A stretch of 64,000 nt of DNA from Bryoerythrophyllum caledonicum (Eukaryota > Streptophyta > Bryopsida > Pottiales > Pottiaceae): NCBI GenBank assembly GCA_963971425.1, contig OZ020519.1, positions 3,984,028 through 4,048,027 on the forward strand, written 5' to 3'. The first letter of the stretch is position 1. Every line of letters starts with the position of its first letter. Under the pieces are notes generated by a model. It was not told the origin of the DNA and did not search any database. It saw only the letters and a program-made list of their open reading frames with translations. Below, in pieces: positions 1-33,301 of the stretch. The position numbers and the translations under genes are program-made.

Positions 1-310
1 TGCGTCAACGATCGCTGCTTCAAAACTCCAGGATTTTCAAGCCTCTGCGTCAACGATCGCCGACTGAACTTTTCGGTAAGTTCCCTGCCTTTCTTGCTTT
101 TTATTTAATTCCATTTCGGTAAGTTCTCTGTCATTCTTACTTTCCATTTCTTTTTGGTGCTGCATACGGGCGGTCCTTCTTCCATTCCGTTTCAAATGTG
201 GGGCGTTGGAAAGTAAGCTGTGTGAAGGTGTAGAAAATTTTGCAAAGCGTCCAGGTTTAGGGTTTAAGAGTTTTAGGGTTCCCGATAATCGTTTCTTGCG
301 ATAAGGTTTC
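1..310 (+). other. 5' region of partner gene A, possible upstream exon
   Basis: A 15-base word TGCGTCAACGATCGC occurs at 1 and again near 46. A strong splice donor context (TTTCG then GTAAGTTC) follows near 75 and is echoed near 115. The first 75 bases can be read as the end of an upstream exon, as the paralogous genes D and C have a 153-nt exon just upstream, but this reading contains a TGA. No more can be supported. Confidence 0.25.
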
Positions 311-2337
311 ATGTTCGGCAATGTCCTTCCTCGCAGGACCGTAAAAATGCCGAAGCGGCCGGTGTGTTTTTGCAAGCCACTGTTTGATGAGATCCCGGTG
401 GAGAACAGGAAAGGGATTCCGTCCACCTACAACAAGGAAACGGGGAGGATCGAGCAGCTATTCGTCATTGAGAACGACCACATTTGGCGCGATAGCTGGG
501 AGGTGATGGAGGCAAGGGACCTTATCCTGGAGCTGCATGGACCGGACTCGCCCATCGTACCGCCTCAACAAACCGGCCCCAAGCAGATACTGTGCATTCA
601 TTGCAACACGACGCACCAGAAGCACAGGTTCAACCTCCACCGGAACCATGCATTGTGCGAAGGGAAGGGGAAGGAGGGCGTGAAGATGCCGTCGTATCCC
701 AATTTGGGCGTCAGGGATGTGGCAAACTTTGTGGCACGACTTCGGGATTGCCAGTCGGCTGAAGATGCAATTCAGGTATTCGGCACCATAGAGCCGATAG
801 CCACAAAGAGGAGGCTTCGGAAGGGTACCAATAATGAGGAGGAACCGAACAGTCGACGTTGAATTAAGCGCGGGAAGAAGCTATCAGAGGAGGGCCCTCC
901 GCAGAAGCGTACCGCGGCGGCTTCTCGGAAAAGACCTCCGCCCCCGAAAGCTATGTCCAGTGACGATACTTCTTCCTCGGCAGAGTTGGGAGGAGATCAC
1001 AGCACAGATCATGAGGCCGATAACGCACGGACTCTGACTGTGCACGGCGAGAAGGGCGATCTTCCGTCCGGGGATGATGCCTCTAGGAATTCCGGTGCCG
1101 AGAACCCGATGTCAAAAGTCTGGGAGTCCGCACTCGCGCCGGCGTCCAAGAGGGATTCCTCCATCGTCCTCCGGAAGGCGGAGCTTGCGAAGCAGAATGT
1201 ACCGAAGAAGGTGGCACAAGTTGAAGAGGCCACGAAGAAGGCGAGATTTGAAGAGTCCTTGAAGAAGGCATTCCGGCCCCCAGCAACGGCGAAAAGGCTT
1301 ACGGGAATGTCTGTGGAAGAGACCGCGATGGCGAGAAGGCATCGATCCCCACCGGTGCAACAGCGGCTTAGAGAGACGAGTAATGTCGAGAGACCCTCCT
1401 ACTCTGACGAAGGAACGCCGATAACCTCGCACGAATCCCTCCAATCCTCGGCCCAGAAGGAACAGCGACCGCCGCTGACATTGGCCAGTATACTTCGGTT
1501 AAGCTCTAATGATGGTGCGAATCCCGATAAGCGCCTCATTCTCCCGGCGAAAGGTAGCAGGGAGCAAGCTTTGGAGTCGGAGAGGGCCGAGATGATACGG
1601 CAGGTGCAGGAGGACGCTGCGCGCCTTTTCCCGTTGAAATTGGTGCCCACCCCCGAGAGGAAGGTACCGATAATGCCGCTATATCTACTCCTCAAGCATG
1701 GTCTGCTCGACAATATCACGATGGGGAGTTTACATTCCGAAGATGAGCTGTTGAAGTACGTCTTGTCCTTGGTGGAGTCTGGAGGCAGCCAGGGGAGGTT
1801 CCACCAGGCTCTCGGTGCCTGCATTTCCGAAGGGGTCGGCTTCGACGATAACCATGTTTCGCTTCAACAGTGTCAAGCCTTTGCAATCTGGCAAAGAATC
1901 CGGATTACAGTACAATGAAAGAGGTCTGGACAGAGGCATCGAGAGGAACGTTGGCATACAGGACGCATATGTTGGAGTGCGTCCAGTTAGAAGCGGCTTT
2001 GCAGGCCAAAAACGACAAACAAAAGCGGTGCAGGGAGAAGTTAGTTAGGATGGAGATGAGTAGATTTGATGCCGAAAGGGCGGTGGAGACAGAGGCTATT
2101 CGATGGGACTTCAACAATCTCTTCGGGTATTGCGCGATGAACAAGATTCTTCGACCATTGCTGCCCCCACTGCCACGGACGCACAACATTGACGAGGCTC
2201 GAGATGTCGTGCACCGTCTAATTTCTATCAGAATCGACATTGCCCCGTCTCCGGCTTCAGCTAAGCTGTTGAAGTGTTACTTCGTTTGCAACGGGTTCTC
2301 GCGGGTGTAAGTTTTTCCTTCTCGCCACAAACTTGTC

Positions 2338-2440
2338 CCTTATCGTGTCTTCTCGCCCCTTATCGTCTCTCATAGTCCCTTATCGTCTCTTATCGTCTCT
2401 TATCGTCTCTTATCGTCTCTTATCGTCCCTTATCGGTTTA
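2338..2440. repeat. CTTATCGTCT decanucleotide tandem repeat
   Basis: Eight TTATCG cores, mostly at 10-base spacing, sit inside the 2307-2461 intron of partner gene A. It is a local amplification of the hexamer that is enriched across E1. Confidence 0.8.
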
Positions 2441-3723
2441 CTTGACTTCGTTGTTTTTCAGGGGCCGGAATATGTGCAACCCTAGCGTAATCCCCGGGCC
2501 TGCCAGCATTGAATTGTACTTGGACGCTCCAGTGGAAAATTGGGATGGGCCGTCTCAAATGTACGAAGTCCTGAGTCCCTTCCTCTTCAGAAGGGACGCA
2601 TCCGATATGCACCTCCCGTTCTCGGCGGTGTTCTCGCGGCTCCGCGATAATAAGAACGGCGGGCGAGATTCTGTGTTGCGCTTCATCGAAATGGTCCATG
2701 CTCGCACTGTTGTGGACACGGCAAGGAGTCATCCAGAGGATTTCGTTCGACAGTGGTGTGCTGCCGATAAGGGTACCTACGAACACTGGGATACCCTGGA
2801 CGAGAACTGCTTGGCAAGGGAGGATCTGGACTTCATGTATGCCGGCTACGTTCCACGTAAGATTTATCCGATAACCCCGTTGTGAGCCAAATAAACCGCC
2901 CTCTAATGGGGTGGCTTATCTTGAACACAAGATCCTACATATGGGATGCAGCCCCTTGTGCAAACATACTTTAACCATTCATACAAGTATGATGACCCAA
3001 GGCGTGGTCACTTAAGAGGGTTCGTTAATAATTAGTGATGTGATGGCTGAATTGAGCCTTAGGTTGAATCCAACCTTTAGACAAGCGTAAATTCCGCCTC
3101 AAAGCTTTGTTTCCAATGTTTTAAAGCTCCATTAGGTTCAATTTTGCCTTGTGAACTTGATTAGCACCTTAACCACCAATTCCAGGCCCAAGTGCGACCC
3201 TAACAGCAGCAACCAGCAGACAGGCTCCTCTTTTTATGTAAAAAGTTTAATTCTTCATTATCTTCGTGATTATGACTCCGTTTTTTACGTTTGTTTTTTG
3301 TATTCTAATTAGTTTTTCTTGCTTAACACGATGGAAGCCTTCAATTGATCATTTGACTCGACCCTGGACCTCCCAGCCAGCGACCAGCAGTGCACATTCA
3401 ACATATGACTTTATTCAAGATCATGCACCACATTCCTATGCATGTATCACATTCATTCACACAAGAATCCACCCCAGCCTTACTAAGAGTGAGCCTCCAG
3501 CTGTGTTCACTTACTAATGGCGCTCTAATCCGTTATTTAGTTGAATATATAGCAAACCCTAATTCTACCGAAAAATTGGCAGCGCTTCCGCGTGGTTTTT
3601 GTATTTAGAAAATTAGGGTTCAAGTCATACACATGGAATTGAAGAGGTTCGAGGGAGAAAAGAAAAGGGGCTCCCTGAGTTAATTCGGTTCACCCTCCAT
3701 CCTTAGCCTTCGACTTGCTTGGT

Positions 3724-3879
3724 CAGCTCGTGATCTTGCTCCTCTTGTTCAGCTCGTGATCTTGCTCCTCTTGTTCAGCTTGTGATCTTGCTCCTCTTGA
3801 TCAGCTCGTGATCTTGCTCCTCTTGTTCAGCTCGTGATCTTGCTCCTCTTATTCAGCTCGTGATCTTGCTCCTCTTGTT
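3724..3879. repeat. 26-bp minisatellite, six copies
   Basis: CAGCTCGTGATCTTGCTCCT units start at 3724, 3750, 3776, 3802, 3828 and 3854, an exact 26-base period with few substitutions. Confidence 0.9.
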
Positions 3880-3888
3880 GGTGCTCTT

Positions 3889-4530
3889 CACTCCGCCGCC
3901 CGTATCTTCGTTGTCACAGCTCCGATCCGCGCGTTCTTGAGCTTGTTGGAAAGCCAACGTTCTAATCTATCTACTCCTAAAATATTAACCCGATTGGACA
4001 AGAACTCCGCTACTGACGAGGGAAAACCTGAGGCCGTATGAGATCTGCCACCGATCCTCCAGCTGGTCGTCCTCACTCTGCCGCCCGTATCTTCGTCGTC
4101 ACAGCTCCGATCCGCACGTGTTTGAGCTTGTTGGAAAGCCAACGTTCTAATCTATCTACTCCTAAAATCTTAGCCCGATTGGACAAGAACTCCGCTACTG
4201 ACGAGGGAAAACCTGAGGCCGTATGAGATCCGCCACCGATCCTCCAGCTGGTCGTCCTCACTCCGCCGCCCGTATCTTCGTCGTCACAGCTCCGATCCGC
4301 GTGTTCTTGAGCTTTTTGGAAAGCCATCTTTCTAATCTATCTACTCCTAAACTCTTAGCTTGATTGGACAAGAACTCCGCTACTGACGAGGGAAAACCTG
4401 AGGCCGTATGAGATCCGCCACCGATCCTCCAGCTGGTCGTCCTCACTCCGCCGCCCGTATCTTCGTCGTCACAGCTCCGATCCGCGTGTTCTTGAGCTTG
4501 TTGAAAAGCCAACTTCCTAATCTATCTACT
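3889..4530. repeat. 185-bp tandem repeat, four copies (last truncated)
   Basis: CACTCCGCCGCCCGTATC recurs at about 3889, 4074, 4259 and 4444, a 185-base period. The 84-codon minus-strand ORFs in each unit are shadows of the repeat: 185 is not a multiple of three and each ORF runs out in the next unit. Confidence 0.9.
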
Positions 4531-7500
4531 CTCCTATTTTTGCAACGATTGAATCACATTCCAGCCCACAGCAGGGGGAAATCTGAACCCTACCTCTCTC
4601 TCTCCTTCCACACACCTCTCTCACTCCTAGCTCCTACCACACACCTCTCTCACTCCTACCTCCCACCCTTCGAATGAGCGCCCTCCTAGGGGGTAACCCC
4701 AAGGCCCTTGCTCCCTTCTTTGTTCCCAAGGTCGTTCCCTTCGTCGTTCACAGCCGCCAATTTGGGTGGGCACATTAATGGTCACACTAAACAACTAGTG
4801 ACTAAAAAGCAATAATTCACTAGCCACCCTTGCATTTAATACAAGTGGGTGTCCCACTAACCAAGGAATATCTAAATCTAAACTTTGACTCCATGCCACA
4901 TGTGTGTGCATGATCTCAATAAGTGAGCTATTAGCTAATTTTCAAAGGTGCAAAAATCTAATTTAACCTACCTAAATTGAATTCCCCTTGCTTGGGGTAA
5001 TTCCTAATTTACTTAGTGATTGATGAGGATTCTTTTCCACTTCTTTTGGACCCTTTTGACTATTTTTTTTAAGGGCTTTTAACGCCCTATTTTTTTTTTT
5101 CTCCTCACCATCCTCCTTCTTCTTCTCCCATTTTTTTGGTTTCGTGATTTCTTCATCGTGACCGAATTTAACTCGATAGGAGGTAAATTCTTCTCCACCA
5201 CTACTCATTTTAATTCTTTTCTAATTTTCTTTTGTCTTTTTTCCCTTCTCTCTTTGCTTTTCTTTTTTGGTTTATTCCCTTTTTTTTTTCTTCCTTTTTG
5301 GCTAACTACATAAATTCCGCGATCGCCCATAAATGGCTCCTCTTTTAGTGAGGGGAAAGGCCACTTGGCCATTTTAATCAAAAAACCACGAGCTAGTCCA
5401 TGGGATAACCCATTTTCACCACTCATTAGCCTTAATGGACCCGACGTGAGGTCCATTCATCACCGTGAGCCGTTTTTGCGGCTCACACCGGTCATTCATC
5501 TAACTGTTTTCTTCCTCATTCTTGGTATCTCCGTTATTTTCCTGTGACTAACGATAAGGCTTTTGCAGGCACTGTAGATCCTATCGGGGCACGCGAAAGG
5601 GATCTTGCAGAGGCAGATTGCAAGAACGCCGTGTCGCGTCTGGTAAAAAGAGAGTGGGATCGGCGAGAAGGGCATCGAGTGACTTCACATGACGAAATTC
5701 GGCGGGAGACGTCTATCCGAACAAGGGACCTCGAGGGTGCAGCCACCCTCCTTCACATGGACGAAGGAACTTCGAATGAATTCCGCGTCCAGACTCGGTT
5801 CCCGGGGAGTAACGACGACGAAGGATTCCCTGACAAGTGTATGGACGAAGTTACGGAGGAAGCACAAGAGGGGCCTAGCGACGAAATACGTCAGGGAGGT
5901 GTTTCCGATAGCGTCTAGGAAGAGCCCGCTTCTACAACGGTGAAGTCACCGGGCCGTCCCGTCGATAACCCATCTCCCATGGAGTTTTCGTGGACACAAG
6001 CTATGAATGACCCTACCCTCGGCTTTCCGGAGTCTTCACAATCGCTGATGGGGCTATCTCAATTCGACACCCCTCTTCAGCATGTTGTGTTTTCGGGTAC
6101 GGGAGAGACGGAACCCGACATTAAACCCCACCGTCTATCGTTCCCTTTGTCGAATCAAGGTATTGAAAACCTGGACTCTACTGACAGTCCCCCGGTGGTT
6201 CCCGAGGCGCCTTCCGTGACACCCTTCGAAAGTCATCCAATCCCAGAGAAGGCTCCCTCTCCGGACTCCGATTACGCTTCTCCGCCAGGGCCCAATAACC
6301 CTGCTCCTCCGCCAGAGCCCAAGAACCCGCCAGAGCCCGAGAACCCGCCAGAGCCCGAGAACCCGCCAGAGCCCGAGAACCCTGCTAGCCCGCCAGAGCT
6401 CGAGAACCCTGCTAGCCCGCCAGAGCCCCAGAACCATGCCAGTCCGCCAGAACCCGTTGAGCCTGCTTCAGTGCCAGATCCTGATAGCCCTGTTCTGGTA
6501 TCTGAGCCCGATAAGCCTGCTCCTTCGCCAGAGCTCGATATGCCTGCTCCTCTGCCAGGACCCGTTCAGGCTCCTCCTCCGCACGAGCCTGATAACCCTT
6601 CTCCAAATGAGATGGACCCCGAAGAGATCAGACTGGCATTGCGCTTTATCAAGGAAGCACAGGAATCTGGGATGTCTAGTATTTGGGTTTATCTTGGACT
6701 CGAAGAGCGTGTTATAAACAGAAGGGAAGGACAGAAGGCGGCGTATACGTGCATGTCGAAGGAGAACCGCGGAGTATGTACTTCAGACTGTGTGTCCTGG
6801 GAGAAAGCGCCCTCGCTCTACTACGAAGCCGAGGAGCATGACCCATCCATGATAGAGAAGAACCTCGACATTATTGTAGAGGTCCTAATGCGGCGGTGAG
6901 TGTCGTCGTCTATGTTATCGTGTTCTCTGACACCTACTGTTTATCATGACCTGTTGTCTAACGTCCGCTTTCTTCTGAATTGTAGGCCTCGTTTTATTCA
7001 CCCGAAGGACCTGACTGGAGGTATGAGGTTTTTCGGTCCAGACCTTCGGCAAGCCGTGGATGTCTCGCTCGCACTACAGGACTCGCATTGCGTGCTAAAG
7101 GACAAGCGGGAAATGGAAGGCACATTTCTGGATTTCATCCTTAGGCATGTCGTCTACCGTGCGAAGGAGCATGTTCGAATCCAGTATCATCACACGCACA
7201 ACTGGTTATCGGCGACTTTGCAGTGCTATCTGGCGAATGAAGCGAAGGGTTGGGATGACATCGTGAGCTTTCTCAGCCGCTCGTTCCATAGCACCACCAA
7301 GACGCCGAATACCCTTATCGTCCCTTACCACGATAAGGGTCACTAGAGCGTATTCGTCGTGGAGCAAAGGCGAACATATCACTTGGACCCAGCGAAAGGC
7401 ATGCACAAGGGTCGGGAAGTGAACAACTTCATCTTCCTTGTGCACATGGGATGGGCAATAGCGAAGGGCGTGAGGATCGGATCTCGGAGTTGGACTGAAT

Positions 7501-8000
7501 GGCAGAGTCGATCGCCGATAAGGTTGCCTTTGCCTAGTCAGAAAGAAAGCTAGGAGTGTGGTTTCATGGCAGGCTTGGGCTTCTGGCAGTACCTGATCGC
7601 ACGTGGTGGGCGCAAAGAGGCGGAGGAGAAGACCGTGACGGAGACCAAATATCTGGACTGGGACGGGAAGAAGGCGTACCGATGGTTCATGCAAGCGCTG
7701 TATACGGAGATTGTCGCACCGCTTCCGTTCCACGATGCCCTTAATCTATGTGGTCAGGATACGGTGGAGTTCGGAAGCGGAAGTCCGGACGTAGTTTTCG
7801 TGGAAGCCGGTACAGAGACGGCGAAGAAGAAGGAAGTCCCAGTTCTTGGTATTTTGGAGACAGTGGGGGATCGTGATCTTCAGGGCTTCAACGTGCTCAC
7901 AAACCCACCAGTGACTCGAGGAAGGCGAAAGAAGTCAACCGCACCGAAAAGCCCAAAAAAACCGAGAAAACCGAAGGGCACCACCAAGACAAAGAAGTAG

Positions 8001-8378
8001 GCGATAAGGGGGGGGTGTTGTACACAGCTGATAGACTCCAGGAATTTTTACAGATTAATAGGATGCCGATGTTGTACATTTCATTCATTGTAAATGACAA
8101 TTTTTTCGATAGCGTACATAAACGGATTTTGGGACCCTCTTGCAGAGCCTTGTAAGCGGAACTTAAAATCCAGTCTTTGCCGATTATATTGAATGTTGAG
8201 TTTTAACTTTCAAACTAAAGAAATATCACTTCAGTGGAAATTTCAGCCGATGCATGGAACTTAATCTAAGAGCATCTGATCGGCAGTATTCTACCGATAA
8301 GATTACTAATGGTTATCGGTGCAGGTTTGTAGCTGAAATCCTCTGTCCTTTATACTCATCCACATCGGTGCCGACAAC
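8001..8378. other. Convergent 3' intergenic region of E1
   Basis: AT-rich spacer between the stop of partner gene A and the stop of the minus-strand MULE1. It holds several CGATAA/TTATCG words (8001, about 8295, about 8312). No gene is seen; the 3' ends of both transcripts should lie here. Confidence 0.5.
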
Positions 8379-11300
8379 CTAAGTCGTTTCTTGAGTTAGT
8401 CTTTCGCTAGGTGGAATGGACCTCACCCAAAAACCTCTGGAATCCAGGAAGTCATGCAACCTTCGGAGCCTCATTCCAAGACCATCTTCATTTGTGGGGA
8501 GCGGTGCAGCTATATCCTGGAGTGGATGAAGCATTCCGGCTTCGATTTCAGCCTCCAACCTTAAGAGGGTGGCGTCGGTGTTGCGCAAAGCTGCATCCAA
8601 GTGTCTTGCTAGCAATGGTTGGCGATAAGCCTTCTCGAGTAGCTTCAGGACAAGCTGATGCATACGATCAAAGTCGCATACCCATGTCTCCCCTAATTCT
8701 CGAAGGTTGGAAGTCACTGGGGTTACATCTCCGGCTTCGGTATCGGAGGGAACATCATTATCGGGGAAGCCCTCGGTATTCGGGTGTCGACCATTGTCTT
8801 GGCGGAGAAGATTCGTCATTCCTCCTTGGATTGTGCCGCGAAGGGAGCCCAAATATCTAGCAATTTTGCCCTCCGCCAGGTCAGGTCTTGTCATTTTCAG
8901 GACCTTAACCTGGTGCTTACAGATGTTACCTTTCTGGAAATGAACACATTGGCAGACGGCCCATTCGGTGCATGGATTGTATACCGCATACGTAATGTGT
9001 CTCCTATTCGAGGATTTAACGTATGCAAGACCTCCCGACCACTCGGGCAAGGTGACCACATTATCGGGAATTGTGTTTGCTTGGTTGATTGCATTGACCA
9101 TGATCTGCCGCTGCCTCTTGTTCTTTATAAAACCGTTTAGCTTACACCAGTGATTGTAATCATACTTCTCGATGACATTTCCAGTGAGCTCATAAATAAG
9201 CCAGTCCATCCTTCGGCCGATAAGCTTCCTTTTGGATTGCCGGAGCACTGCTTTCATGTTAGAATGGTATGATTCGATCGCTGCAGTGGTGTCCTGGCCA
9301 GCATGGGGGATTTTCCAGTCTCCCACAACCCACATTTTGATTTTCGGGAGCCATTCTTTGTCGAAGTACTTCCAGTATGCATCAGCGTCTGGCAAGAGAG
9401 CCTTAGCTTCGCCGTAAACGTGCCGCACCCACTCTACCAAATTCCACACCTTATCGCCGGGAGCTCTCGCCGAAGGGTCTTGGAAGTCACTAGGTGTCTT
9501 TGATACATACATAAGTGAGCCCACAATTCGCAAAGCTCCGGCCCTCGTCTCCATGTCTTTCAACTTAGCACATTCATTCTTCTGCCACGCTCGACGAACA
9601 TGCCAGAGACATAGAAATAGATGCGAGTACGGCCAAACCTCCCTGCGATAACCCGACACGCCTATAAGTACAACTCGCTGAAGCCCGTCACCCGATAACG
9701 TAAGAATGCTAAATTGCTTACCGAAGAGAGTTGATCTCATTATCGGCGTCGTCAAGTACAAAGGCAGTGGGTCTCCAGTCCGGCCTTATCTGCACCAACT
9801 TCTGCTTCAGAGCGCGCATCCAAGGGACGAGATCTGCTTGTTTGGATTTCGCAGTGATCACGAAAGCCACTCGAACACCGTTTCTCCACTCGTCGAATAC
9901 CATCATCGTGAAGAGCGGATACTGGACATGCAAGCAAGGAATTAAGCGGTATGGGAATGAGTGCTCCTAATTTTTATACGGACCCTACATGGAGCATGGT
10001 AAGGTATGTGTACCTTTTTGTTGTTTGTTGCGAATGTCTCGTCTATAGCAATAATGTTATCGTGACTGTATTTCAGCATCATGTGCGTCTGAAATGGGGT
10101 TTGAATCCCAATTACGAAGTATACGTTATCGGCATTCAGCACTCCGTCGACCTTGCTGCCCGGGTCTTGGTAGTAAAAAACCGTACCTCGGTTTTCTCGG
10201 ACCCACATTCTCACACTCTCAGCGTTGTTGTCGTATTTCTTGTATAGTTCTTGCGCACGGACTCCGCATATGTTGCGGATGTCCTCCATGCTAAGGAAAC
10301 AATCCCGAGAAGGCGTAAGAGTGCCCTCATCCCGTGCCTTCAGTACCAGCTTCTGGTGCTTCTGTATTATAGCTGCCATCGGAACTTGCTCTTCAAATTG
10401 CCTCAGAATCCAAAGCCTTACTTCCTCCGATATGTACTTCCGAAAGCGGAGCTTTCCCCTCTGCACATTGTCCTTATCGTGGACGATGAGGCCCTGTGTG
10501 TCGACATGTTCCGAGCAAAAGTACCCTATCTCGGCGATATATGGTAGAAAATAGTACCTCTTTACGTAGAATCGACATTGGCAGCCCACTTTCATAGAGC
10601 CCCCTTCCTTCGCATCAGTGGCACGAGGGCCTTTCTGGCCAGCGCCGGACGTAAGTTGTATCCCTTTGTGATTGTATTTCGATGGCGTTGGTGTCATTTC
10701 GGGCGTGATAGCTTGGATCTTGTCCCTGTTGTCTTCGAGACCGTATTGACAACGCCATCTGCTTATCGGCGTTGACCATCAGAGATACGTGCGGTACTGA
10801 AGAGATGTAACGGCACAGCCGATAAGCAGATCTACCGTGTATATTGAATGTGATATCAGAGGTCGTGATTCACTTACCGCTGATACTCGATGTGGCAGTT
10901 CGACCGATAGTGCGTCTTCTTGCCGACGTTTGTGGGGTCGTTCTTGTCGCAGACGAAGGTAGTCTCTACATCCTTTCGGCCAGACTGCTCACCCTCCATG
11001 AAATCCGAGACCCTATCCCAGGGAATGGAGGCGATAAGCTTGGACTGCTTCCTCTTCGATGATTGCGGATCGTCTACGAACCTCGTATCATTCTCAGCCT
11101 CCATGTTCCACCTAGGACATTTCCACGTCAAAATCCCTAGAGGAGGGTTCTGTAATGAATCGTGCATCCGAAGAACCTTGTGACCGTGTTTCTTCAGGTA
11201 GTCTGCATGCTGGCCTTCCCGGAACGCGGCATCAAGGTCCTCCACCCCCTTCTCACGCACGCCAGCCGGTTTCTTTCTCCCTTGACGCCTCCATTTTCTC

Positions 11301-11398
11301 CCTGATGCCCCGTTATCGGCAACGGTTGGTGCCGCCGTCTCGCCAGAATTCCCATTTGGCCTGTCTTGGATGGGGAGATTGAGATCGAGGAACTCCAT
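8379..11398 (-). CDS. MULE1: Mutator-like transposase with SWIM zinc finger, apparently intact
   Basis: Four exons on the minus strand: 11398-10878, 10758-10014, 9921-9722 and 9642-8379. They use GT-AG introns and sum to 2730 nt (910 codons) with no internal stop. Exon positions and phases match MULE2 and MULE3. The N-terminus has an EAR-like LDLNLP motif near residue 4. Exon 2 has a GCQCRF...CSEH zinc-ligand pattern. The transposase core has the conserved Asp in AIDETFATN (about residue 413), VFDEW at the start of exon 3, and FLCLWHVRRAW at the start of exon 4. A SWIM finger (CQC, 8 residues, CKH) lies near residue 718. It should bind element ends and catalyse cut-and-paste transposition in the nucleus. 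It faces partner gene A tail to tail. Of the three MULE copies in the window only this one lacks nonsense codons. A domesticated FAR1-like gene is possible, but the element context argues for a transposase. Confidence 0.8.
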
Positions 11399-11707
11399 TC
11401 ACGCGGAGACAAGCACTCCCCTTCCGGCAAGGTGCTACACGGCACAATAGATCGTGAGAAAGACGGCGCAGTACGAAACGATGTGGATGACACTTCGCGC
11501 CGGCATCCACCGAGAAGGGCGGGTAATTCTGGAGTACACGTGGCGGGGGCGAGAAGGTGACTTCGGTGATCCGGAGAAGGCGGGGGCGAAGGGGCTTTTC
11601 GGCGAGAAGTGCCGAAAAGAGAGACGGGCAGCGCGAAATAATTGAGGGCGAGAGTGGCAGTTATCGTGGGAAGGAGGCGAAAAGGCGCTTGGGGAGAAGG
11701 GCCGGTC

Positions 11708-11748
11708 TTCGCGGTGTCAGGGCTAAAACCGGGCCCTGACACCGCGAA
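11708..11748. repeat. Hairpin with 16-bp arms near right end of E1
   Basis: TTCGCGGTGTCAGGGC (11708-11723) is the exact reverse complement of 11733-11748, with a 9-base loop. It lies just beyond the last E1-type hexamer (11661) and upstream of MULE1's start codon. Confidence 0.8.
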
Positions 11749-12211
11749 CTCGGATTGACTGTAGTGACCGGGCTGTGAGACTGCCAAAAATAGTGCAAGA
11801 GTTTAATATGGTCCTATAATAGCTCCGTCGAACGCGTGAAGTGCACGTTGTACTTTCCTTCCTGCGGAGAACCAGCCATCAACTTAGAGGTAGCATCCAT
11901 ACAGGGGAAGTGTGCCCCACTCACTGTGCTTTCCGTGTCTTTCATGGAATGCTCTGAACCCTAGATATATGGTATGAAATTCCATATCTTTGACTTTGTT
12001 CATGAAACTGAATGTCTGTCACCATCTTAAAAAAAACACTCAACCTTAGATACAAGGCTTATATCCTCAGGTTGAGTTAATGCTCTCACTGGGTACATAC
12101 GATAGGGGAAGAACTCCGATCTCGAGGGAGGCGAACATGAATACAGTGTCTGTTCATTCCACCACTAAGTTTGGGACTTTGTGTCACCGGACCTAGGTTA
12201 AGGTATGTTCG
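11749..12211. other. Spacer between E1 and E3
   Basis: About 460 bases without a supported gene, repeat or element end. I see nothing identifiable here. Confidence 0.4.
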
Positions 12212-12596
12212 CACGGATCTGGCTAATTCACCCCGACGAGCGTTGGCCCATGCCGCAGCCTCGTCAGGGTGGTTGCCTACGGCCCCGACCCTCCTTCTCG
12301 GACCCGGCCAGCCCAGCCCGGTTTCCCCCCGCTCGCCCAGCCCAGCCCGGTTTCCCCCCGCTCGCCCAGCCCAGCCCGGTCTTCCTCCCGCCCGCGCATG
12401 TGCCCGGCCGTCCCTACCCACCTCATTCTTTTTTTCCCCCAACCCGTCCTTCCCTTCACCGAGCAGCCCACGCGTCGTCAACCCTGACCGCCAGTAATGT
12501 CCAAGCCGAAAAACGGATCTTGACACCCTGCCGCTCCTGCCATAGCCGCCCTCCACATTGATGACAGTTTGGGGTTTCAACCATGCCCTCTAGCAG
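12212..12596 (+). repeat. E3 left terminal inverted repeat (interrupted by E2)
   Basis: GC-rich repeat that matches the reverse complement of 55473-55865. It contains a short duplicated segment (CCCAGCCCGGTTTCC, 12313-12380) that is missing from the right copy. The distal 41 bases of this repeat lie at 33302-33342, beyond E2. The long ORFs on both strands here are compositional. Confidence 0.75.
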
Positions 12597-12868
12597 GGGT
12601 CTCTCTATTCTCCCCCGACGAGCGTTGCATTTCCTTTCTTCGAGGGCAGGGGCAGCGCGCCCCTCCCCGAGCCTCCGCCCTCCCAACCCTCCCTCCGCCC
12701 GACCCTGGCCGGGTCCCCGCAGGCCCGCCCCCGCCCGCTCGCCTGTGCTCAACCGGCCCATCCGCCCGAGCCCGTCATCCACCGGGCCCTGGTCTCATCC
12801 GTCGTGAGAAGCCCCGCGCCCGTTGTCTCCCTCCCCCGCCCGCGCCCCCGTCGTGGAACATCAATGCC
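12597..12868 (+). repeat. E2 left terminal inverted repeat
   Basis: 272 bases, the inverted counterpart of 33021-33292. Homology ends inside at GTGGAACATCAATGCC. Confidence 0.88.
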
Positions 12869-15295
12869 GCCGTCACTATAAACGGTTGGAGCGTCTTGGG
12901 CTTCATGGCGCCGGCGCTATTGATGGCGCCTTGGCGATGGTTGAGGGCGCGCTGCGGAACATGGGACGTCTACGCCGGCCCGCTGGAGGGAGTTCGTTGC
13001 GTTGTAGGGGATAAGTGGGGTGATGTTGGTGATGGACGCCGCCAGAATTTTCGGATAATCTGCTGTGAGTGCGGCTGGCTGTACTTTAGGATCTCAGAGC
13101 TCTGAGGTCATGAATCGCGATGGAGGCTGACGGTCCTAACCAGGTTAGAGTGACGGATTTTCAGAGGGAGGTTCAGGTCGGAGAGATGGAGGACTTCCAC
13201 CGATGGAACTTTGATGGCGACCCAAGCCACGCGGTGAGGATGCATTCGATCGCCGGTGGTGCCGAATCTGGACAGGTCGGAGGAGAAGCGAGGATGGGCG
13301 CCTATGCTGGTCTAAATCCCGATCTGGCTGGTGAAGGGGACGCCGTGGATCTAGCTGCGGAAGACGACGGCTTCCACTGGAACTCTGGAGGTTGCAGCCC
13401 GTCACCTTCCGGTGACTCTCTAATACAGGTAATGGAGGATGTCAAGGACCCCGGCAGTGATGGTCCTGCATGCGGAGTTGGAGGTGCAGTTGAGCACACC
13501 GTCTAGGTGGAGAAGGACGTCGGTGTTGTAGGAGAGAAGTTAGTGAAGCCAAGACAGAAAGAAAAGAAACCAAGGCCGTCCTGGAGGTACCTGCTGGAGA
13601 AGGTGAGGGCATCAGTGCAGATCCCTCCTCTTGGTCCGTTCACCAGGACAGACTTGCAATGGGAAACTAAATCGAATCAGGGAGGTGGAAGACGAAGAGA
13701 GATTCAAAAGGCCACAATTCCATGGAATCTGTTGGACGATTTCTTGGAAAGGGAGATGTCTGCGAGGCAGTACCCTTGCACCTTTGTAGAAGAGTCTAGG
13801 CAGTGCATAAAAAAGGGCGAGAGGAAGCAGGTGCTAGCCGAATCGACTGTACAGGAGATCAGGTAACACACCCAAATCCTCTACTTTCTTGTGTATTCAG
13901 AGTTTAGGGTGGTCTAGACATTCTCCTTTGCTGTCCTAACCTGTCCTACCTCTGTCCTATGCTGTCCTAACGTGTCATATCTAGGTCTGCGCCTGGCCTA
14001 ATGCCAGAATCGAACCTTACAGTCGTTGTGTCCTACAATGCAGTTACCGGTGCCAGTATGGACCCGAGGATTATACCAAGCACTACAAGGTGAAGGTTCA
14101 GAAAGTATTCTCTCACGTCCTAACACAGAAAAAGAACTCTACGAATCAAAGAAAGGCTCTCCAGCGTGCGCAGAAGATAGTGGACAAAGCGGCCAAGGAA
14201 GCAGCAGCCAAGCCCCGTCCTAAAAAGAAGAGCAAGAAGGAGGTGCAGGTGGACCTGAATGTAGAACCTGTTGATGAGGATGCCGAAGAACATGCCAGGG
14301 TGAAGGAGGCACAGTAGAGGCTTTTGGAGGCTCAAGCTCTTCTTGATTCCGCTGTGAAACCGAAGAGAAAGACTAGAGTGGGCAAAGTTCATGCTGGAAT
14401 GTCCATGAAGAGAGGCTGTCAGTGTAATTTCATTGCAAAGCGATTGCTGGTTGATGAATCCCTTTGCACTATTCAGTTCCATTGTATGGCACATACTAAC
14501 AAGAACGGCAAGCCTTGTCATGGCTCAAAATTTGGAGGACAACGTGCAGGATTCTCTGGCCATCTATCTGCAGCGACAAAGCAGTGGATAACTGACTTTC
14601 TTAGGTCAGGCAAGTCGCCAGCCCATGTCATGGCCGACCACAAAGCAAAAGTGCTCCGGTGTGCACAACTCAACCTACTTGCTACTCGAGATACTTTTGT
14701 CATGCCAGCAGATGTCTACAACATTGCGAACAAGGTGGCCAAGGAGCTCTGGGAGAAGCATCCCAGGGATGCGATGAGCGTCCGCATGTGGACAGATGAG
14801 AATCCTGAAAGCTTCTACCATTACAGAGAGTACGGTAACCTTGACCTAAATGATCCACCACCTGATGAAGATGATCCATTCTGTCTGGCCATCCAAACAG
14901 AATGACAACTCGAAATGATGGTCAGGCAAGGCCACCGTAGAGCATTATCCATGGATGCAACATTCTCCACTAACGCCCTCAAAGGTGAGATGGATACTAC
15001 TCCGCTGTCCTCGACAGAAGGTTTTTTTTTTTTTTTTTCCCATTTAAGAACTCCTGTTTTAGACAGCCTGTCCTAAGAGTCTTTGCTCACTGGTTTCGTT
15101 TGTCCTGGTGTTCTGCAGTACCCTCTATACACTGTTATGGTTTTCGATGAGTGGGAGCAGGGCATTCCCGTCGCATTCACGATCCAAGGGAAGTCTAGGG
15201 AGGTTGATATAGTCCCTTGGCTCGGAAAACTAAACGAGAGGTGCATAGCAGTTCAGCCGGACTGGAAACCCTCGTCTTTCTTGGTGGACAATGAC

Positions 15296-15495
15296 NNNNN
15301 NNNNNNNNNNNNNNNNNNNNNNNNNNNNNNNNNNNNNNNNNNNNNNNNNNNNNNNNNNNNNNNNNNNNNNNNNNNNNNNNNNNNNNNNNNNNNNNNNNNN
15401 NNNNNNNNNNNNNNNNNNNNNNNNNNNNNNNNNNNNNNNNNNNNNNNNNNNNNNNNNNNNNNNNNNNNNNNNNNNNNNNNNNNNNNNNNNNNNNN
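15296..15495. other. Assembly gap of exactly 200 N
   Basis: 200 undetermined bases, probably a fixed-size placeholder. It abuts a CCGCGG-rich array and hides the end of MULE2 exon 3 and the left boundary of the RING/kinase unit. ORFs drawn across it are meaningless. Confidence 0.95.
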
Positions 15496-15645
15496 CCGCG
15501 GACTGCCCGCGGATTGGGAGCGGACGGGGATCGGACTGGGAGCGGACAGTCCGCGGACTGCCCGCGGATTGGACGCGGGCAGTCCGCGTCCCGTCCGCGG
15601 GCTGGGCAGGGAATGTCCGCGGACGGGACGCGGACGGGGTGCACA
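15496..15645 (-). repeat. CCGCGG-rich array, left
   Basis: Degenerate repeats of GCGGACTGCCCGCGGATTGG, the reverse complement of the unit in the other two arrays. Confidence 0.8.
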
Positions 15646-16090
15646 TGTTATAGAAAGCGGAAGGGGCCCATGGCTTGACACTTTCTTAGTCCTAGAAAGC
15701 CTTGACGCACTTGCCTCCACGTTGACGGCGGTGTGTGGGGCTTCAAAGTGGGAAAGTGCTCCTTTTGAGGACCTTCATTTTCCCAAGGGGAGATGTTTGT
15801 CCTCAGAAGCATCTGTTTTTTCACTATTATAGGCGATGGTTATGCCAACGGTGGGGTTTCAGCAATCTATCCAAGCATGGCAACAATATTTTGAAGTGCA
15901 TGCTTCAATTTGTAGCCTAGGCAGCACTATTTTGAAGTGCAGGTAGTCTTCAGATTTTTGGAATAGAGCAGTTGTTCTAGAATTTTTGTATAATTTTTGT
16001 ATGATAATAGATAATGTGGGAGAGGAAATAGATATTATTGTAAGTAACTTTTTTGATACGGGAATCTGTAGAAGACTTTAGAAGAATTTC
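15646..16090. promoter_or_regulatory. Upstream region of the RING-H2 gene
   Basis: About 440 bases, turning AT-rich before the ATG at 16091. The word TTTTGAAGTGCA(T/G)G occurs twice (about 15890 and 15930). A promoter is expected here from position only; no core motif is assigned. Confidence 0.3.
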
Positions 16091-18325
16091 ATGATGGAAA
16101 GCGGAGGTGGTGTTCAAGGAGCACAGAGGATGATGGTGGACAAACCAAGCGAGGAGGGTTTTACAGTGAAAAGGACAAAGAGGAACCCAGCAGATTTGGA
16201 GCTGGAGGTATACGCAAATCGTGATCTTCAAGCAAAGGAGGGTTGGAAATCACTGCATGAGCCATGGACAGCCGACAGTGCATTGGAGTACATCAAGTTT
16301 GCGCATCTCGACAGATGGTGGCCTGCGGAGCTCCACCCTAAACATTGTGCAGCGAGAGCAGTCACGTACAGACAGATCAATGACGTGCATGTGAAGTGGA
16401 GGTTCCTCGAGATCTTACGTGCCATTTCTAACTTGGAGAAATGGCCTAAGAATAATATTCTTAGATCCATTGCAGCATTGATGTATGTAGAATATCAATT
16501 AGGAAAGGAAGTGGATTGGTCAACGATTCACGACCCCTTTTCAGGTGGTCGGAGACTTGGACGCCATCTTTCAGCAAAGAAACCTCGAGAGATTCCAAGA
16601 AACAATGCCCCTCAATGGTTCCTTGATAACCCTACTTTGTACGACGATCCAAATGATGAAGTGCCGTTCAATCGAGAAATAATTGTTTCGCCAAGGAATA
16701 GTAGCGGTCGAAAGCGTAGAGAAAGGAAGGTTGAGGCCACTCATTGCAAAGAATTGGACAAGCATGCCCCAAACGAGATTGGGGAGGGGTCAAATCCACT
16801 TTCAGAAACTTTGGAGATGGCCAATGCTATTCCAAGCAAAGCCGCTGACGCCCCGATGAAGTTTGATGAAGATAAGTATGGTGAGTTACAAGCACAATTG
16901 GAAGTGCTTAGTGTGGAGATAAAGAGGTTGCAACATGGACGAGACGATGATGTGGAAACGGTGTCAAAAGTACTTGCGCTAGAGATAGAGAAGAAGAACT
17001 TGCTTGCTGAAGTGACCCATCTACGCAATCAAGTCAATCAAGTCAACGATAGTAATGAAAAGTACATGATTGAAGTTGCAGACTTAAAGAGGGAGCTACA
17101 AGAAATCAAGGCACAACATGTAGCAACGGAGATGACGCATGCAGGTTTGCAGCAAGAGTTGGATGAATTAAAAGCATATCGGGAGAATGAAGAATCGGCC
17201 CGAAACAATCTTAAATTATTGGTTTCAACAATAATCGATGAGCGCGAAGAGATGATGATCACAACGTTATTCGTTGTGGCACGGACACGGCAATATGAGG
17301 CGGAATTCCAGAGTATATGCGTTGAATGGACATCGGAGAAGAAGTTAAGGACCCTTTTGCTCACATCATGGCCTCGTGATGAAACCATGTATCCAATCAG
17401 CTGGGACGATAGTGATCCGTCGGTACTATTGAACAACAATAGTATTGATTGGAGGCTTGTGACAGAAGAGGATCACCGTTGGGACATTGAAGAAGTGCAT
17501 GATCATCCAACTGAAATGATTGGAAAGCCGTTGTGGCAAAGACCATACCCCATGACATCCGACGGATCATCATGTCCTATCTGCGATAATCCTTGGGGTC
17601 CTGAAGGGTGTTATATGATTGGATTGTGTGGCCATTCGTTCCATCCGCATTGTCTAATCAAGAGTATGATTCGTTTGCGTACTTGCGGTGTATGTAGGGC
17701 GCCATTACATCCACGTTTGTATCTTCAATTTGGCCTACGGGATATCATGCCAAATCACTGGGTGTATCGTCAAGATGATTATGACTTTGCACTTGAAGAC
17801 TTCAATGGGAACCCTGTTGAGTGGAGTTGGAGACATAATATGTCCAAGGCACAACTGTGGCATACCTTTCAAGGGGAAGAATTGTTAGATGATCCAGACA
17901 AACTAGTACATACAACAAATGAGATGTATCCTGACAAACCGGCAGATTACGGCATGAAGATGTTTTTTTACCAGACCCTAGGGTGGCATTGGAATCGTCA
18001 AAGAAACGAATTGGCGCACGGCTTAGGACCGCCACCATATTACAACTCATCTGGCGAGCGAGCTGTGGGGGATCTAGAACTACGAAGGGCTTATCGTGAT
18101 ACAACACTACCTGCAACCACTGGAACGGAGGAATTGTATTGGGAAGAACGCTACCATCAAAAACGACTACATGTGGCGGCGCTGGATGCCATTTTGGAAG
18201 ACGTCGCCCCGGAGATGAAGGAATGGCTTAATGGTGGGGAGATACCTCGATATCGGCAAGGCCATGGACGTCATGGATATCGAACGCGGAGTAATGTTCG
18301 TGCAAGAGATGCTGCAAGAGCTTAG
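16091..18325 (+). CDS. RING-H2 finger protein with central coiled coil (744 aa)
   Basis: A single uninterrupted 744-codon ORF. A RING-H2 finger lies at about residues 495-535: CPIC, then C-x-H-x2-H-x2-C in LCGHSFHPHC, then CGVC, matching the eight zinc ligands of RING-H2 E3 ubiquitin ligases. A long heptad-rich segment at about 256-390 is a likely coiled coil. The C-terminal 200 residues are rich in Trp and Tyr and carry no motif I recognise. The basic tail has RTRSNVRARDAARA. By family it should recruit an E2 and transfer ubiquitin; substrate unknown. It lies between two CCGCGG arrays, with a kinase-like pseudogene downstream on the same strand, inside transposase gene MULE2. The intact frame contrasts with the decay around it and suggests either recent arrival or selection. 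A captured host gene is the main alternative to an element-specific gene. Confidence 0.7.
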   Translation: MMESGGGVQGAQRMMVDKPSEEGFTVKRTKRNPADLELEVYANRDLQAKEGWKSLHEPWTADSALEYIKFAHLDRWWPAELHPKHCAARAVTYRQINDVHVKWRFLEILRAISNLEKWPKNNILRSIAALMYVEYQLGKEVDWSTIHDPFSGGRRLGRHLSAKKPREIPRNNAPQWFLDNPTLYDDPNDEVPFNREIIVSPRNSSGRKRRERKVEATHCKELDKHAPNEIGEGSNPLSETLEMANAIPSKAADAPMKFDEDKYGELQAQLEVLSVEIKRLQHGRDDDVETVSKVLALEIEKKNLLAEVTHLRNQVNQVNDSNEKYMIEVADLKRELQEIKAQHVATEMTHAGLQQELDELKAYRENEESARNNLKLLVSTIIDEREEMMITTLFVVARTRQYEAEFQSICVEWTSEKKLRTLLLTSWPRDETMYPISWDDSDPSVLLNNNSIDWRLVTEEDHRWDIEEVHDHPTEMIGKPLWQRPYPMTSDGSSCPICDNPWGPEGCYMIGLCGHSFHPHCLIKSMIRLRTCGVCRAPLHPRLYLQFGLRDIMPNHWVYRQDDYDFALEDFNGNPVEWSWRHNMSKAQLWHTFQGEELLDDPDKLVHTTNEMYPDKPADYGMKMFFYQTLGWHWNRQRNELAHGLGPPPYYNSSGERAVGDLELRRAYRDTTLPATTGTEELYWEERYHQKRLHVAALDAILEDVAPEMKEWLNGGEIPRYRQGHGRHGYRTRSNVRARDAARA

Positions 18326-18654
18326 AGCACCACATTAATTTGTGGAAGTGAAGGATTAAAGATTCAGCAAACTATGACCAAGTCTAATTTCCCGATTGAA
18401 TTAGTGTAACCAAAGCTCTCATGTTGTTATCTTTGACATTACGAACATGGAATTCACAGTGAGTTGTACACAACGGGATATTTTTTACCCATTTTGAATG
18501 CATTTATATCGAGGTTCAAATTTGGACATTACCGTTCTCACATTGCCAAAACTTGTAGTTACACGGCGACCTTGTTGTCTCCCCCAAACCCCACCCCTAC
18601 AGCAACGGCAGTTGCAAAGAGCAATTCAAAGGAGAAAAACGACGCCCATTCAGC

Positions 18655-18935
18655 GGACAGGCCGCGGGCAGTCCGCGGTCTCTGGGGGCCAGTCCGCGGG
18701 CAGTCCGCTGCCAGTCCGCGGGCAATCCGCTGCCAGTCCGCGAGCAAGTCCGCGGTCAGTCCGCGGGCAATCGGTTGCCAGTTCGCGGGCTCTTCCAACC
18801 CAATCCGCGCCCCGTCCGCGGGCAATCCGCTGCAGTCCGCCGGCTAGTCTGCGGGCAGTCCGCGGGCTCTTCCAACCTAATCCGCGCCCTCTCCGCGTCG
18901 AGTCCGCGCCCCGTCCGCGGCCCGTCCGCTCCCCG
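18655..18935 (+). repeat. CCGCGG-rich array, middle
   Basis: Degenerate units of about 10-12 bases built on CAGTCCGCGGG, between the RING-H2 gene and the kinase pseudogene. ORFs on both strands here are repeat artefacts. Confidence 0.85.
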
Positions 18936-19222
18936 ACGGCGCGGTTCTCCAGGTTCCCAACCCTATCCGCAATGTTCCCGACCCCTTGCAGCCTATATAA
19001 AGGCGGATAGGCCATTGACGACCTCACTTTTTTCCCTCCATTTCCTTGCCCAATAGGAACCCGAGACCTTGTTGCGCGAGCACCATTGCACGGGTTTCGA
19101 GGGTATAGGAGTTGGGAAAGACGAATGCGGAGGTAACCCTTGTCATTTTTTTCCAGACTCACTCACTTTCGCACTGCACTTTAAGTGACCGGTTTAAGTG
19201 ACCGGTTAACTACTTTACAGGA

Positions 19223-21175
19223 ATGGCCGATAGCAGGGTGCATTATCAAGATGCAGACATGCAATTCCACGAGGCTCATCAGGTGGAAATTCAATCAACC
19301 ACTGCTGCAGCCGATCGTGTGAGTGGTGGTATGTTGGCGAGAGGACAAGGTAGCGGAAGTGGGCGAAGTGACGGGGGTCGCAGGCACGGCATGGAAGAAC
19401 TGCACCAAGAATTTCATGCACTTGGACGAAATAATTCTCGTGGGTCGCAATCACATTCACGAGGCGTAGTAGGATCTCGAGGGGTTCCACGAGGATCAGC
19501 GCGGGGGACCACTGAAGGAGGGCGGTCACGAGGATCTCAAAGTTTGAGCGGATTTCGACACCCGGGAGCTCGCAGTTCAGGCGGATCGAGTGGTGAGCCC
19601 GCAGTAGGAGAGCCATCACTAAGGGCTGTTCGACATGATGAGGTACCATCTGCAACAAATTCCTTGGTTCCAAGCGAACCTTCAGTTGGAGCGGGACGAG
19701 GGCGGGGTAAACAGCCAGCTTTTTCAGAGGACTCAGAGCCCTACAAGAAAAGAGCAAGGACAAGCCATTTGGATGCAATGAGCAAGGAATTTAAGTGCAG
19801 GGTTGTAGCAGATATATTATTTTGGATGATAGAGAAAGGTCTATCCAAGTTGGAGAAACGGTACTTGTATAACGGCGCTACAGGACTAGAAGCTATGGAG
19901 GCAAGATTGATACTCATTATCCAAAATATTGCCAATGAAGTAAATTTTCGCGAAGATAAATTGAGACATTCAATGGATACATGGCCCAGCTTGTTTGCCA
20001 AACAAGCTATTCACAACCCCGTGAAGACTATTTGGGATGTCTATTACAAGGAAGATGTAAGCGAACAAGCAATGGAAGTGAAGTTATTGTTTGAGAGACT
20101 CAAAGAGGGGGTAGAAGCAATCAAGCCGAAAGGGTGAACTAACCTCGCTATTCCTTGGATTGATCAAGATTTGGTTGCGCAGGTTGCGAGTAGAGGTCGT
20201 GAAGGTGTAGTGTGGCTTCCAATGCATGCAGAAGTAAAGGCGTTGGATACTAGAAATTATGAAGGAGGCTTTGGAGTTGTCCGTCGTGTGAGTATTGACG
20301 GTGTAAGTTGCATTCCAGCACACATGGAGTTTGCGGGGAAAACAATGAAGGAAGATAGTCGTGAAAAAAATCGGGAGAAACGTTCAATTGAGGCGTTAGC
20401 ATGTCCAGTGGACCATGCAGGGGTTATCAAAATCCAGTACCTGGATAGAAGAACATACGAGTCGTATACTCTATGGTGGAACGGTGGCTCACTAGCATCT
20501 ATTTGGAGGATCGATTCAAAATATGAGGAGGAACACGAAGATGATATTCTTAAAACAGCTGGAATCGACTTTGAGGCTCGTATGGAACTATGCGTGTATC
20601 GTAAAAATCGGGCCTATTTAGCATGGGCACTACTGTGCATCATGGATGTGATACATTCCCAGCGCATTTTGCACAACGACTTGAGCCCCAACAATGTTAT
20701 GCTTCATTTTCCGTAAGAGAAAAAAGATGTACTGTACATCGGGGTGTGTGATTGGGGAATGGCATCATGGGATGGCGAAGACAAGATGTCAAACTACGGT
20801 CGACCTTCTAGTACAGAGCTCGGTGCTTTCCGAGCTAAGTATCGTCATGCTGCCCCCGAGCTATTCCATGTATATGGGAAGCCCGGAACACCAACGTCAC
20901 CGAGGAGAATGGGAATAAAGCATAAGCACAACCATAGATCTGAGGCGTATGCAGTGGGGTACTTGGCAAGGAGGATCTACAACCGTGATTGCTCTTCAAG
21001 CTTGTTCCAAAAGAACAAAGATCCGAGTTCATTGTCCAAGCGATTTGAGCAAGCCATGGACGAGTTGTTGAAACCCGATCCACTAGAGAGATCAACCGTC
21101 ACGCACGTAGTAGACTTGTTGAAAGGACCGCCCTACAACCTAGCTACACCATGGGATTTCTTCCGCAATGAGTAG
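19223..21175 (+). pseudogene. Protein-kinase-like gene with two in-frame stops
   Basis: One reading frame runs from ATG 19223 to 21175 (651 codons), broken only by TGA 20135 and TAA 20714. The N-terminal 170 residues are Gly/Arg/Ser-rich. The kinase domain follows with all main signatures: Gly loop GGFGVV (about residue 347), AxK as FAGK, catalytic loop HNDLSPNN (about 484, HND in place of HRD), DWG in place of DFG (about 510) and AAPE. The domain is thus assignable to the protein-kinase fold, family unknown. A 56-base GT-AG intron around the first stop was tested and breaks the frame, so nonsense mutation is more likely. CCG-GTAAGA at the second stop looks like a donor, but no acceptor fits nearby. 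It is paired with the RING-H2 gene between CCGCGG arrays. Confidence 0.65.
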
Positions 21176-21483
21176 TATATAGTATATTGTGATTTCATAG
21201 TCCTTAGATACTGTAGGGTATGTAGCATCTTTTCTATGTTGTGAAGTGTTGTCTAATTTGTATTCGGTTATTTGCAAGAAGAGAATGCCTTTTTGGACTT
21301 CCCTGTAATTTTGAATGAAGAACAACTTTGTACAAATTGTTTTGAATTGGTCTCCCAATCCGCCCTTTGTATCTTCAGAAATAAAAATGGAATAACGTAA
21401 TTAAAAAATATCCTAACTACCATATCCGAGCTCCCCCACTCCCAATCCGCGTTGCATTGGCGCCCCCACACCTAGGCCGGTGC

Positions 21484-21958
21484 GAGTCCGCGATCAGTCC
21501 GCGGCAGTGATCGCGATCAGTCCGCAGAATTATCTGCAGCCAGTCCGCGGCAGTGTCCGTGGCCAGTCCGCAGCAGCGTCAGCAGCAACGTCCGTAGCCA
21601 GTCCGCGGGTCTGCACTTAATCCGCGGGTCCCCATCCAGTCTGCTGCGTATCCGCAGCCAGTCCGCGGGTCCACATCCAGTCCGCTACGTATCCGTGGCA
21701 GTGTCCGCGGCCAGTCCGCGGCAGCGTCCGCAGCCAGTCCGCGGGTTCCCATCCAGTCCGCTGCGTATCCGCAGCCAGTCCGCGGGTCCACATCCAGTCC
21801 GCTACGTATCCGCGGCCAGTCCGCGATCAGTCCGCAGCAGCGTTTGCAGCCAGTCCGCGGGTACATATCCAGTCCGCTGCGTATCCGCAGCCAGTCCGCG
21901 GCAGTGTCTGCACGCAGTCCGCGGACGGTCATCGCATGTCCGCGTGCAGTCCGCTCCT
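21484..21958 (+). repeat. CCGCGG-rich array, right
   Basis: Degenerate repeats of GCAGCCAGTCCGCGG with a higher-order block (GGGTCCACATCCAGTCCGCT and similar) repeated about four times, ending the RING/kinase unit. Confidence 0.85.
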
Positions 21959-24493: not shown

Positions 24494-24661
24494 AGTTTAG
24501 AATGTAGAGGTTGGAGTTTTAGAGTATAGACTGAGTTTACAAGTTAGAATGTTAGAGTTTAGAGTGTAGAGGTTAGAGTTTTGAGTGTAGAGGTTAGAGT
24601 TTAGAGTGTAGAGGTTAGAGTTTTGAGTGTAGAGGTTAGAGTTTAGAGTGTAGAGGTTAGA
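24494..24661. repeat. GAGTTTAGAGTGTAGAGGTTA tandem repeat in CACTA copy 1
   Basis: About eight 20-base units alternating two variants (GAGTTTAGAG and GAGTTTTGAG). The same array, inverted, is at about 40990-41160 in copy 2. Confidence 0.85.
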
Positions 24662-24886
24662 GGTGCAGTGTTGGACATGCAATGTGCCGTGAGCGACATA
24701 TAGACGTGACCATGTTGTAGAAGACGTATGCCGCAGCACTTAGGAAACGCAGGGACGTCTTTTGAAACATCCCCGTGTCTATGGAGACATATTTTAAATT
24801 GCGTGTATATCATATTACCACATTTGCAAGTAGGCCAGTAAGCATGAATTTGGATGAATATACATGTTACATGTAAGATGAGGTAT

Positions 24887-28118: not shown

Positions 28119-28122
28119 TTAA

Positions 28123-33292: not shown

Positions 33293-33301
33293 CTCTCGCA
33301 G

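Follow-up and report, generated by a model that had tools for sequence, protein, structure and literature searches.

The 64,000-nucleotide stretch of Bryoerythrophyllum caledonicum DNA analysed here (the window) contains at its left a Mutator-like element, E1, along which the six-base word CGATAA, or its complement TTATCG, is repeated far more often than base composition predicts, within the exons of both of its genes as well as between them. That the word is under selection as a putative binding site appears very likely, and we lean towards a reader that is encoded by the element. The chances seem evenly balanced for the full reading that we propose, namely that CGATAA is an element-specific word for a double-strand-DNA-binding protein of the element family, likely the product of the partner gene (partner A), and serves anti-silencing; the anti-silencing use on its own, for which the argument is one of analogy, we place at even or slightly below.

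Exact counting gave 45 copies in E1 (positions 1-11700; 23 CGATAA and 22 TTATCG), precisely the number that had been estimated by eye, and six in the 52 kb that remain (11701-64000), where only a handful had been claimed; E1 holds 45 of the 51 copies in the window. The expectation from dinucleotide frequencies, summed over five pieces of E1, is 3.6 copies, whilst 17.2 would be expected and six are observed in 11801-64000. The insertion in the partner-gene intron, which serves as an internal control, contains none, as the original prediction had it. With sites ranging from 283 to 11661, mid-gene positions included, the idea of a word that is specific to E1 and laid out along its whole length, not just at its ends, also stood up. 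The further claim that the word occurs in exons, introns and spacer on both strands was correct too: by our by-eye gene model, 24 of the 45 sites lie in 7362 bp of exon or ORF sequence and 21 in the 1789 bp of introns, spacer and flanks (14 with the tandem array counted once), the latter in both orientations. Density is thus higher in non-coding than in coding sequence, yet it is raised in both.

E1 has two convergent genes (Table 1). The four-exon reading of the transposase gene gives a stop-free frame of 909 amino acids, whose product matches the Pfam MULE domain (PF10551; E 1.7e-12, 48.1 bits, cut-off 27.6), the domain by which we assign it to the Mutator-like elements, and also ZSWIM RNaseH-like domains; 11 CGATAA sites fall in its CDS and four in introns 1 and 3. 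Partner A of this copy is probably decayed, barring unseen introns or assembly errors, because its frame is broken by in-frame stops (TGA at 860-862, TAG at 5916-5918) and by frame changes near 1850-1900 and 7330-7350. As the gene looks broken, a functional partner protein would need other copies of the family. A six-frame scan for C2H2-like patterns returned nine rows, among which the E1 finger near 593 alone was judged plausible; in the P3 partner, one expected cysteine is missing from the finger pattern. No long inverted repeat pair was reported at the ends of E1 within 1-13500. The intron insertion contains a 185-bp tandem repeat of about 3.5 copies (3888-4531).

Table 1. Features of E1 and of its sister elements E2 and E3, in window coordinates
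Feature	Position	Strand	Remarks
E1 element body	1-11800		45 CGATAA/TTATCG sites; insertion 2882-5530 left out; left end may be outside the window
Partner gene A, ORF pieces	311-8000	+	13 exonic CGATAA sites; gene model by eye
Partner A finger-like N-terminus (zinc-finger-like)	near 593-658	+	
Partner A middle domain	1900-2856	+	weakly conserved
Tandem array	2335-2435	-	10-bp unit GTCTCTTATC, 8 exact TTATCG; within partner-gene intron 2307-2461
Insertion in partner-gene intron	2882-5530		0 CGATAA
Partner A PEPENP peptide repeat	6276-6604	+	proline-rich; 27-bp tandem repeat, ~12 copies
Spacer between convergent genes	8001-8378		3 CGATAA sites
MULE transposase gene of E1	8379-11398	-	exons 11398-10878, 10758-10014, 9921-9722, 9642-8379; 909 aa; by-eye model
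E2	13100-33000		MULE + (13600-23291, long insert); partner pieces - (31551-28938); candidate word TGTCCTA(A)
E2 word arrays	near 13930-13970 and 28706-28815		in transposase intron region; behind partner gene
E3	33300-40006		MULE + (34182-36858); partner pieces - (39933-37779); candidate word AGGCCA

The excess holds under two nulls. When hexamers were counted against composition-matched shuffles, the check proposed with the original prediction, E1 without the insertion had 35 collapsed CGATAA sites against 3.67 expected from dinucleotide shuffles. The log-likelihood ratio (LLR) of the word was 47.6, whereas no 6-mer exceeded 8.0 in any of 60 shuffles; here, as in the order-2, k=7 and split tests, word copies up to 40 bp apart were collapsed. 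In 200 order-2 Markov simulations the figures were 47.8 and at most 8.7, and under both nulls CGATAA is the top over-represented 6-mer of E1 by a wide margin. When E1 was split into a partner half (1-8000, insertion removed) and a transposase half (8001-11800), each half ranked CGATAA first among 6-mers and each confirmed it in the other (18 sites against 1.87 expected, and 17 against 2.34). At k=7, where words with fewer than eight collapsed sites were omitted, the word CCGCGGAC/CAGTCCGCGG of 15.5-21.9 kb ranked above CGATAA-containing words; it was dropped as an address candidate because it is located in minisatellite arrays.

The sites are spaced somewhat more evenly than at random (coefficient of variation 0.70 against 0.97, P 0.015; mean spacing 236 bp). 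The largest gap between them is not significant (P 0.11), and phasing at 10 or 10.5 bp gave no strong signal. Among 38 sites, with the array taken once, A never follows the core and T precedes it once, giving a working consensus of VCGATAAB; bases further out have little in common. The tandem run, earlier placed at 2338-2440, is real, with eight exact copies at 2335-2435, and outside it the flanking bases are unrelated, which implies that those copies arose singly, one by one. A one-base variant, CGAGAA, often in the form GGCGAGAAGG, shows a rise in E1 too, with 24 copies there and 23 in the remaining 52 kb; its E1 copies lie between 2319 and 11603, some of them inside the PEPENP repeat.

Within coding sequence, we compared the counts with synonymous-codon shuffles made within each gene, protein and codon counts being held fixed. 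The transposase CDS has 11 copies of the word in either orientation against 3.2 expected, a number reached in none of 5000 shuffles, and CCGATA and CGATAA are its two top 6-mers under this null; the partner ORF pieces, with the exonic site at 7516 omitted, have 12 against 2.84 (0/2000). The exonic copies so tested are in the sense form in 18 of 23 cases: sense CGATAA is present 10 times in the partner against 2.08 expected (0/3000) and eight times in the transposase against 2.39 (1/3000), always in the frame xxC GAT AAx in the latter, whilst the antisense form (two against 0.71 in the partner, three against 0.89 in the transposase) is not significant alone. Strand symmetry therefore holds element-wide, whereas the exonic excess is mostly sense, although codon usage alone predicts sense to antisense ratios of about 2.1 to 0.7 and 2.4 to 0.9, near those observed. 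We also compared the residues that the word encodes in the E1 transposase with two relatives only, 7 of the 25 residues being unaligned and left out for each. Identity to MULE2, from the same window, is 2/18 at these residues and 258/656 elsewhere (one-sided Fisher test, 0.010); against the E2 transposase the loss is not significant (5/18 against 240/638, P 0.28). These figures suggest that CGATAA may have entered the transposase protein partly via amino-acid changes.

Two sister elements in the window, E2 and E3, each have a transposase gene and a partner gene arranged tail to tail, and their genes hold no CGATAA at all (0.09-0.56 expected); self hits were set aside in the comparisons by which these elements were described. 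In the 8.2-kb body of E2 there are 18 copies of TGTCCTA, against two in its inserts (9.0 kb), body and inserts having been divided after the site positions were known, a division used in the counts, the order-2 null and the split test. E3 has 23 copies of AGGCCA scattered over 6.7 kb, exons included. Under synonymous-codon shuffling AGGCCA is enriched in both E3 genes (six against 1.67 and six against 1.71, 5/2000 each) and the E2 word in the E2 transposase (two against 0.10, 2/2000, in a gene set that holds one in-frame stop), but not in the E2 partner (one against 0.24, 452/2000). No word was significantly enriched in the genes of another element, the nearest case being one TGTCCTA in the E1 transposase (210/2000).

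Against dinucleotide shuffles, which for E2 left out arrays and repeat copies, the 7-mer GTCCTAA reached an LLR of 17.6 in E2 (maximum 9.4) and AGGCCA 20.5 in E3 (maximum 8.5); two control stretches also slightly exceeded their shuffle maxima (AGGAAGA at 41.3-51.8 kb, 11.4 against 10.8; AGAAGA at 51.8-64 kb, 9.4 against 7.9). The order-2 null gave a different word as the top 6-mer of E2, not significant at a family-wise 0.225, and the 7-mer GTCCTAA at 0.005, a level that was also reached by a 7-mer of the 41.3-51.8 kb control and by the set of insertion and repeat sequence that includes the 185-bp tandem repeat; AGGCCA stood at 0/200 by a narrow margin (10.7 against 10.0). When 7-mers were put through the split test, TGTCCTA ranked fourth and second in the halves of E2 and was confirmed both ways (p 0.0006 and 0.0007), with no 6-mer confirmed there, and AGGCCA was confirmed in one direction only (0.027); none of 60 top words from three control sets was confirmed below 0.05. 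Taken together, these results, statistically much weaker than those for CGATAA, are suggestive of E2 and E3 carrying private words of their own that differ from CGATAA. Such words would speak for a binder that changes fast and is specific to its family, partner A for example, rather than for a transposase that recognises element ends in a generic way. The E1 partner shows a weak hmmsearch match to the E2 and E3 partners (E 0.0015; 11.0 bits against a best of 4.3 in 2000 shuffles), whilst hhalign gave no usable match among the partners.

The presence of the word in exons, introns, spacer and flanks alike makes it probable that its reader is a double-strand-DNA-binding factor, and the spread of sites all along E1 makes end recognition in transposition a less likely use. 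On our reading, partner A, with its zinc-finger-like N-terminus, would be the most likely binder, made by the element family. With so many scattered sites, the protein could be loaded over the full extent of the element, which would thereby be marked as self; silencing marks would then be lost over its full length, by analogy with Arabidopsis VANC, and the remaining genome would be spared, the word being scarce there to judge from this window. On this scheme, each element family would have a short word of its own, read by a rapidly changing DNA-binding partner that the family encodes. More tentatively, and at somewhat less than an even chance, the Mutator-like elements of this genome may each carry a private barcode element-wide, exons included and partly at the cost of amino-acid changes, with a co-evolving reader in which no likeness to VANC was detected, as an independent system of self-recognition and anti-silencing.

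The closest known system is the anti-silencing of Arabidopsis VANDAL elements, in which, in the portions of the sources drawn on here, the VANC protein of each family is described as binding its own short motif (PMC5735166, PMC10398659). VANC21 binds YAGTATTAY, which is dense in its own family (PMC5735166), and VANC6 targets carry AGTTGTCC or AGTTGTAC (PMC5735166, PMC10398659). These motifs are mainly non-coding, often form tandem repeats and matter for targeting through their density (PMC5735166, PMC10398659); the proteins carry DUF1985/DUF287, and their variable regions hold tandem peptides (PMC5735166). E1 resembles this system in pairing a MULE transposase with a fast-diverging partner gene, in having a short motif that is private to the family, dense and partly arranged in a tandem array (judged from one copy of the family), and in the PEPENP peptide repeat of partner A, which recalls the VANC variable regions. 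It differs in that 24 of its 45 sites are exonic, even though non-coding density is higher and there is one array, and in that the partner pieces gave no match to the VANC domains; binding of the word and demethylation would be predicted roles in E1. DUF1985 and DUF287 had no match at E <= 1 in nine ORF pieces of the E1 partner and five of the E2, E3 and 53-kb partners; no Pfam family was above cut-off in these pieces, those of E1 giving just sub-threshold matches to other families. Any similarity to VANC may have diverged beyond detection. We therefore rejected filing E1 as a VANDAL, with no VANC domain in the partner pieces and sites not limited to non-coding DNA, although by analogy it may work like one.

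Ulp1-carrying VANDAL-type elements of eudicots (KIU) are credited with the same kind of anti-silencing in the consulted part of a 2026 review (PMC13317346). Like E1 they are MULE-type elements with a motif of their own, anti-silencing in E1 being by analogy, but their motifs are described there in non-coding regions, whereas those of E1 are also exonic. CACTA elements (En/Spm TNPA, soybean Tgmt), in the sections used of PMC2613891, likewise have family-specific repeated motifs, and their DNA-binding protein and motifs diverge together; those motifs are subterminal, unlike the E1 sites. The available text of a MULE survey mentions VANC in passing only (PMC6446971). The scan of the partner pieces turned up no Ulp1-type domain, and the CACTA transposase belongs to a different superfamily from that of E1, with its MULE and ZSWIM RNaseH-like matches. 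A full-text literature search, with most subscription papers outside it and thus no proof of absence, found no report of a family-private word throughout transposon exons. Bacterial DNA uptake sequences are also short self-recognition words, found on both strands and in genes as well; they are spread over whole genomes for DNA import, and their likeness to E1 is one of design only. Searches of viral contigs gave no pattern match with the E1 transposase (MULE1), no relatives among 242 stretches with the partner alignment (A1) and none among 162 with the MULE alignment (A2).

Other explanations deserve weighing. The MULE transposase itself, or a helper of the TNPA type, might bind CGATAA, whose many internal copies would gather protein and help to pair the ends in transposition. 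CACTA elements, whose own DNA-binding proteins are described as reading repeated family-specific motifs for excision (PMC2613891), offer a precedent, and the transposase frame of E1 is intact; but the sites lie element-wide, mid-gene exons included, without clustering at the ends, and the right flank has a single one, at 11661, the left end being outside view. We regard this as unlikely. It is distinctly improbable that a host factor, such as a GATA- or MYB-like transcription factor, reads the word after recruitment by E1 for its expression. GATAA does form part of the core, and plant factors are known to target sites of the GATA or I-box type, yet one would expect the sites of a transcription factor chiefly in promoters and not, as for 24 of 45 here, in the exons of both genes, and E2 and E3 would require other host factors.

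The two readings that deny the word a DNA-binding protein fare worse. Passive spread without function, through tandem duplication or a mutational quirk, could account for the array, a clear tandem expansion, and would fit the rise of CGAGAA as well, but it is very improbable given that flanks outside the array are unrelated and that the exonic copies exceed the synonymous-codon null. A habit at the level of RNA or codons (a splicing signal, an mRNA element or a codon-pair preference) would suit the sense bias of the exonic copies and their single frame in the transposase. Against it stand the excess over synonymous-codon shuffles, the occurrence of 21 copies in introns, spacer and flanks in both orientations, the lack of copies in E2 and E3 genes and the fact that codon usage already predicts nearly the observed sense to antisense ratio, and we think it very improbable indeed.

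Chromatin change that a transposon directs over its own kilobases whilst the host is spared has been worked out, in the material drawn on here, for the VANDAL-type elements of Arabidopsis and related plants (PMC5735166, PMC10398659, PMC13317346). If the anti-silencing reading of CGATAA is true, E1 would add another case, one in which the partner looks unrelated and sites lie in exons, and this would suggest more than one origin of private-word self-recognition; coding sequence itself would serve as address. A private word per element would then also provide a simple computational test for finding such systems, one that separates an element body from nested inserts and predicts what partner proteins bind.

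Several other features of the window were recorded. Two inverted repeat pairs, each about 95% identical, cross the element boundaries as drawn: 24343-25687 with 40007-41311 (1.3 kb) and 23306-24347 with 51849-52915 (1.07 kb). A GC-rich repeat is present at 12213-12868, 33021-33294 and 55513-55865 in copies about 95% identical, perhaps terminal repeats of E2 and/or E3. At 52874-53588 lies a partner-like fragment (52% identical over 84 amino acids to the E2 partner N-terminus), with no transposase found beside it. The long insert of E2 carries arrays whose 11-bp unit resembles CAGTCCGCGG, at 15496-15635, directly after an N gap, at 18653-18935 and at 21489-21924, together with a 744-amino acid ORF (16091-18325) whose RING-like match falls short of the cut-off (zf-RING_2, E 4.7e-5, 24.0 of 27.3 bits). 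Finally, the ORF at 59977-61356 encodes a DDE_Tnp_4 domain (E 5.4e-23), which by its name we take to be Harbinger-like.
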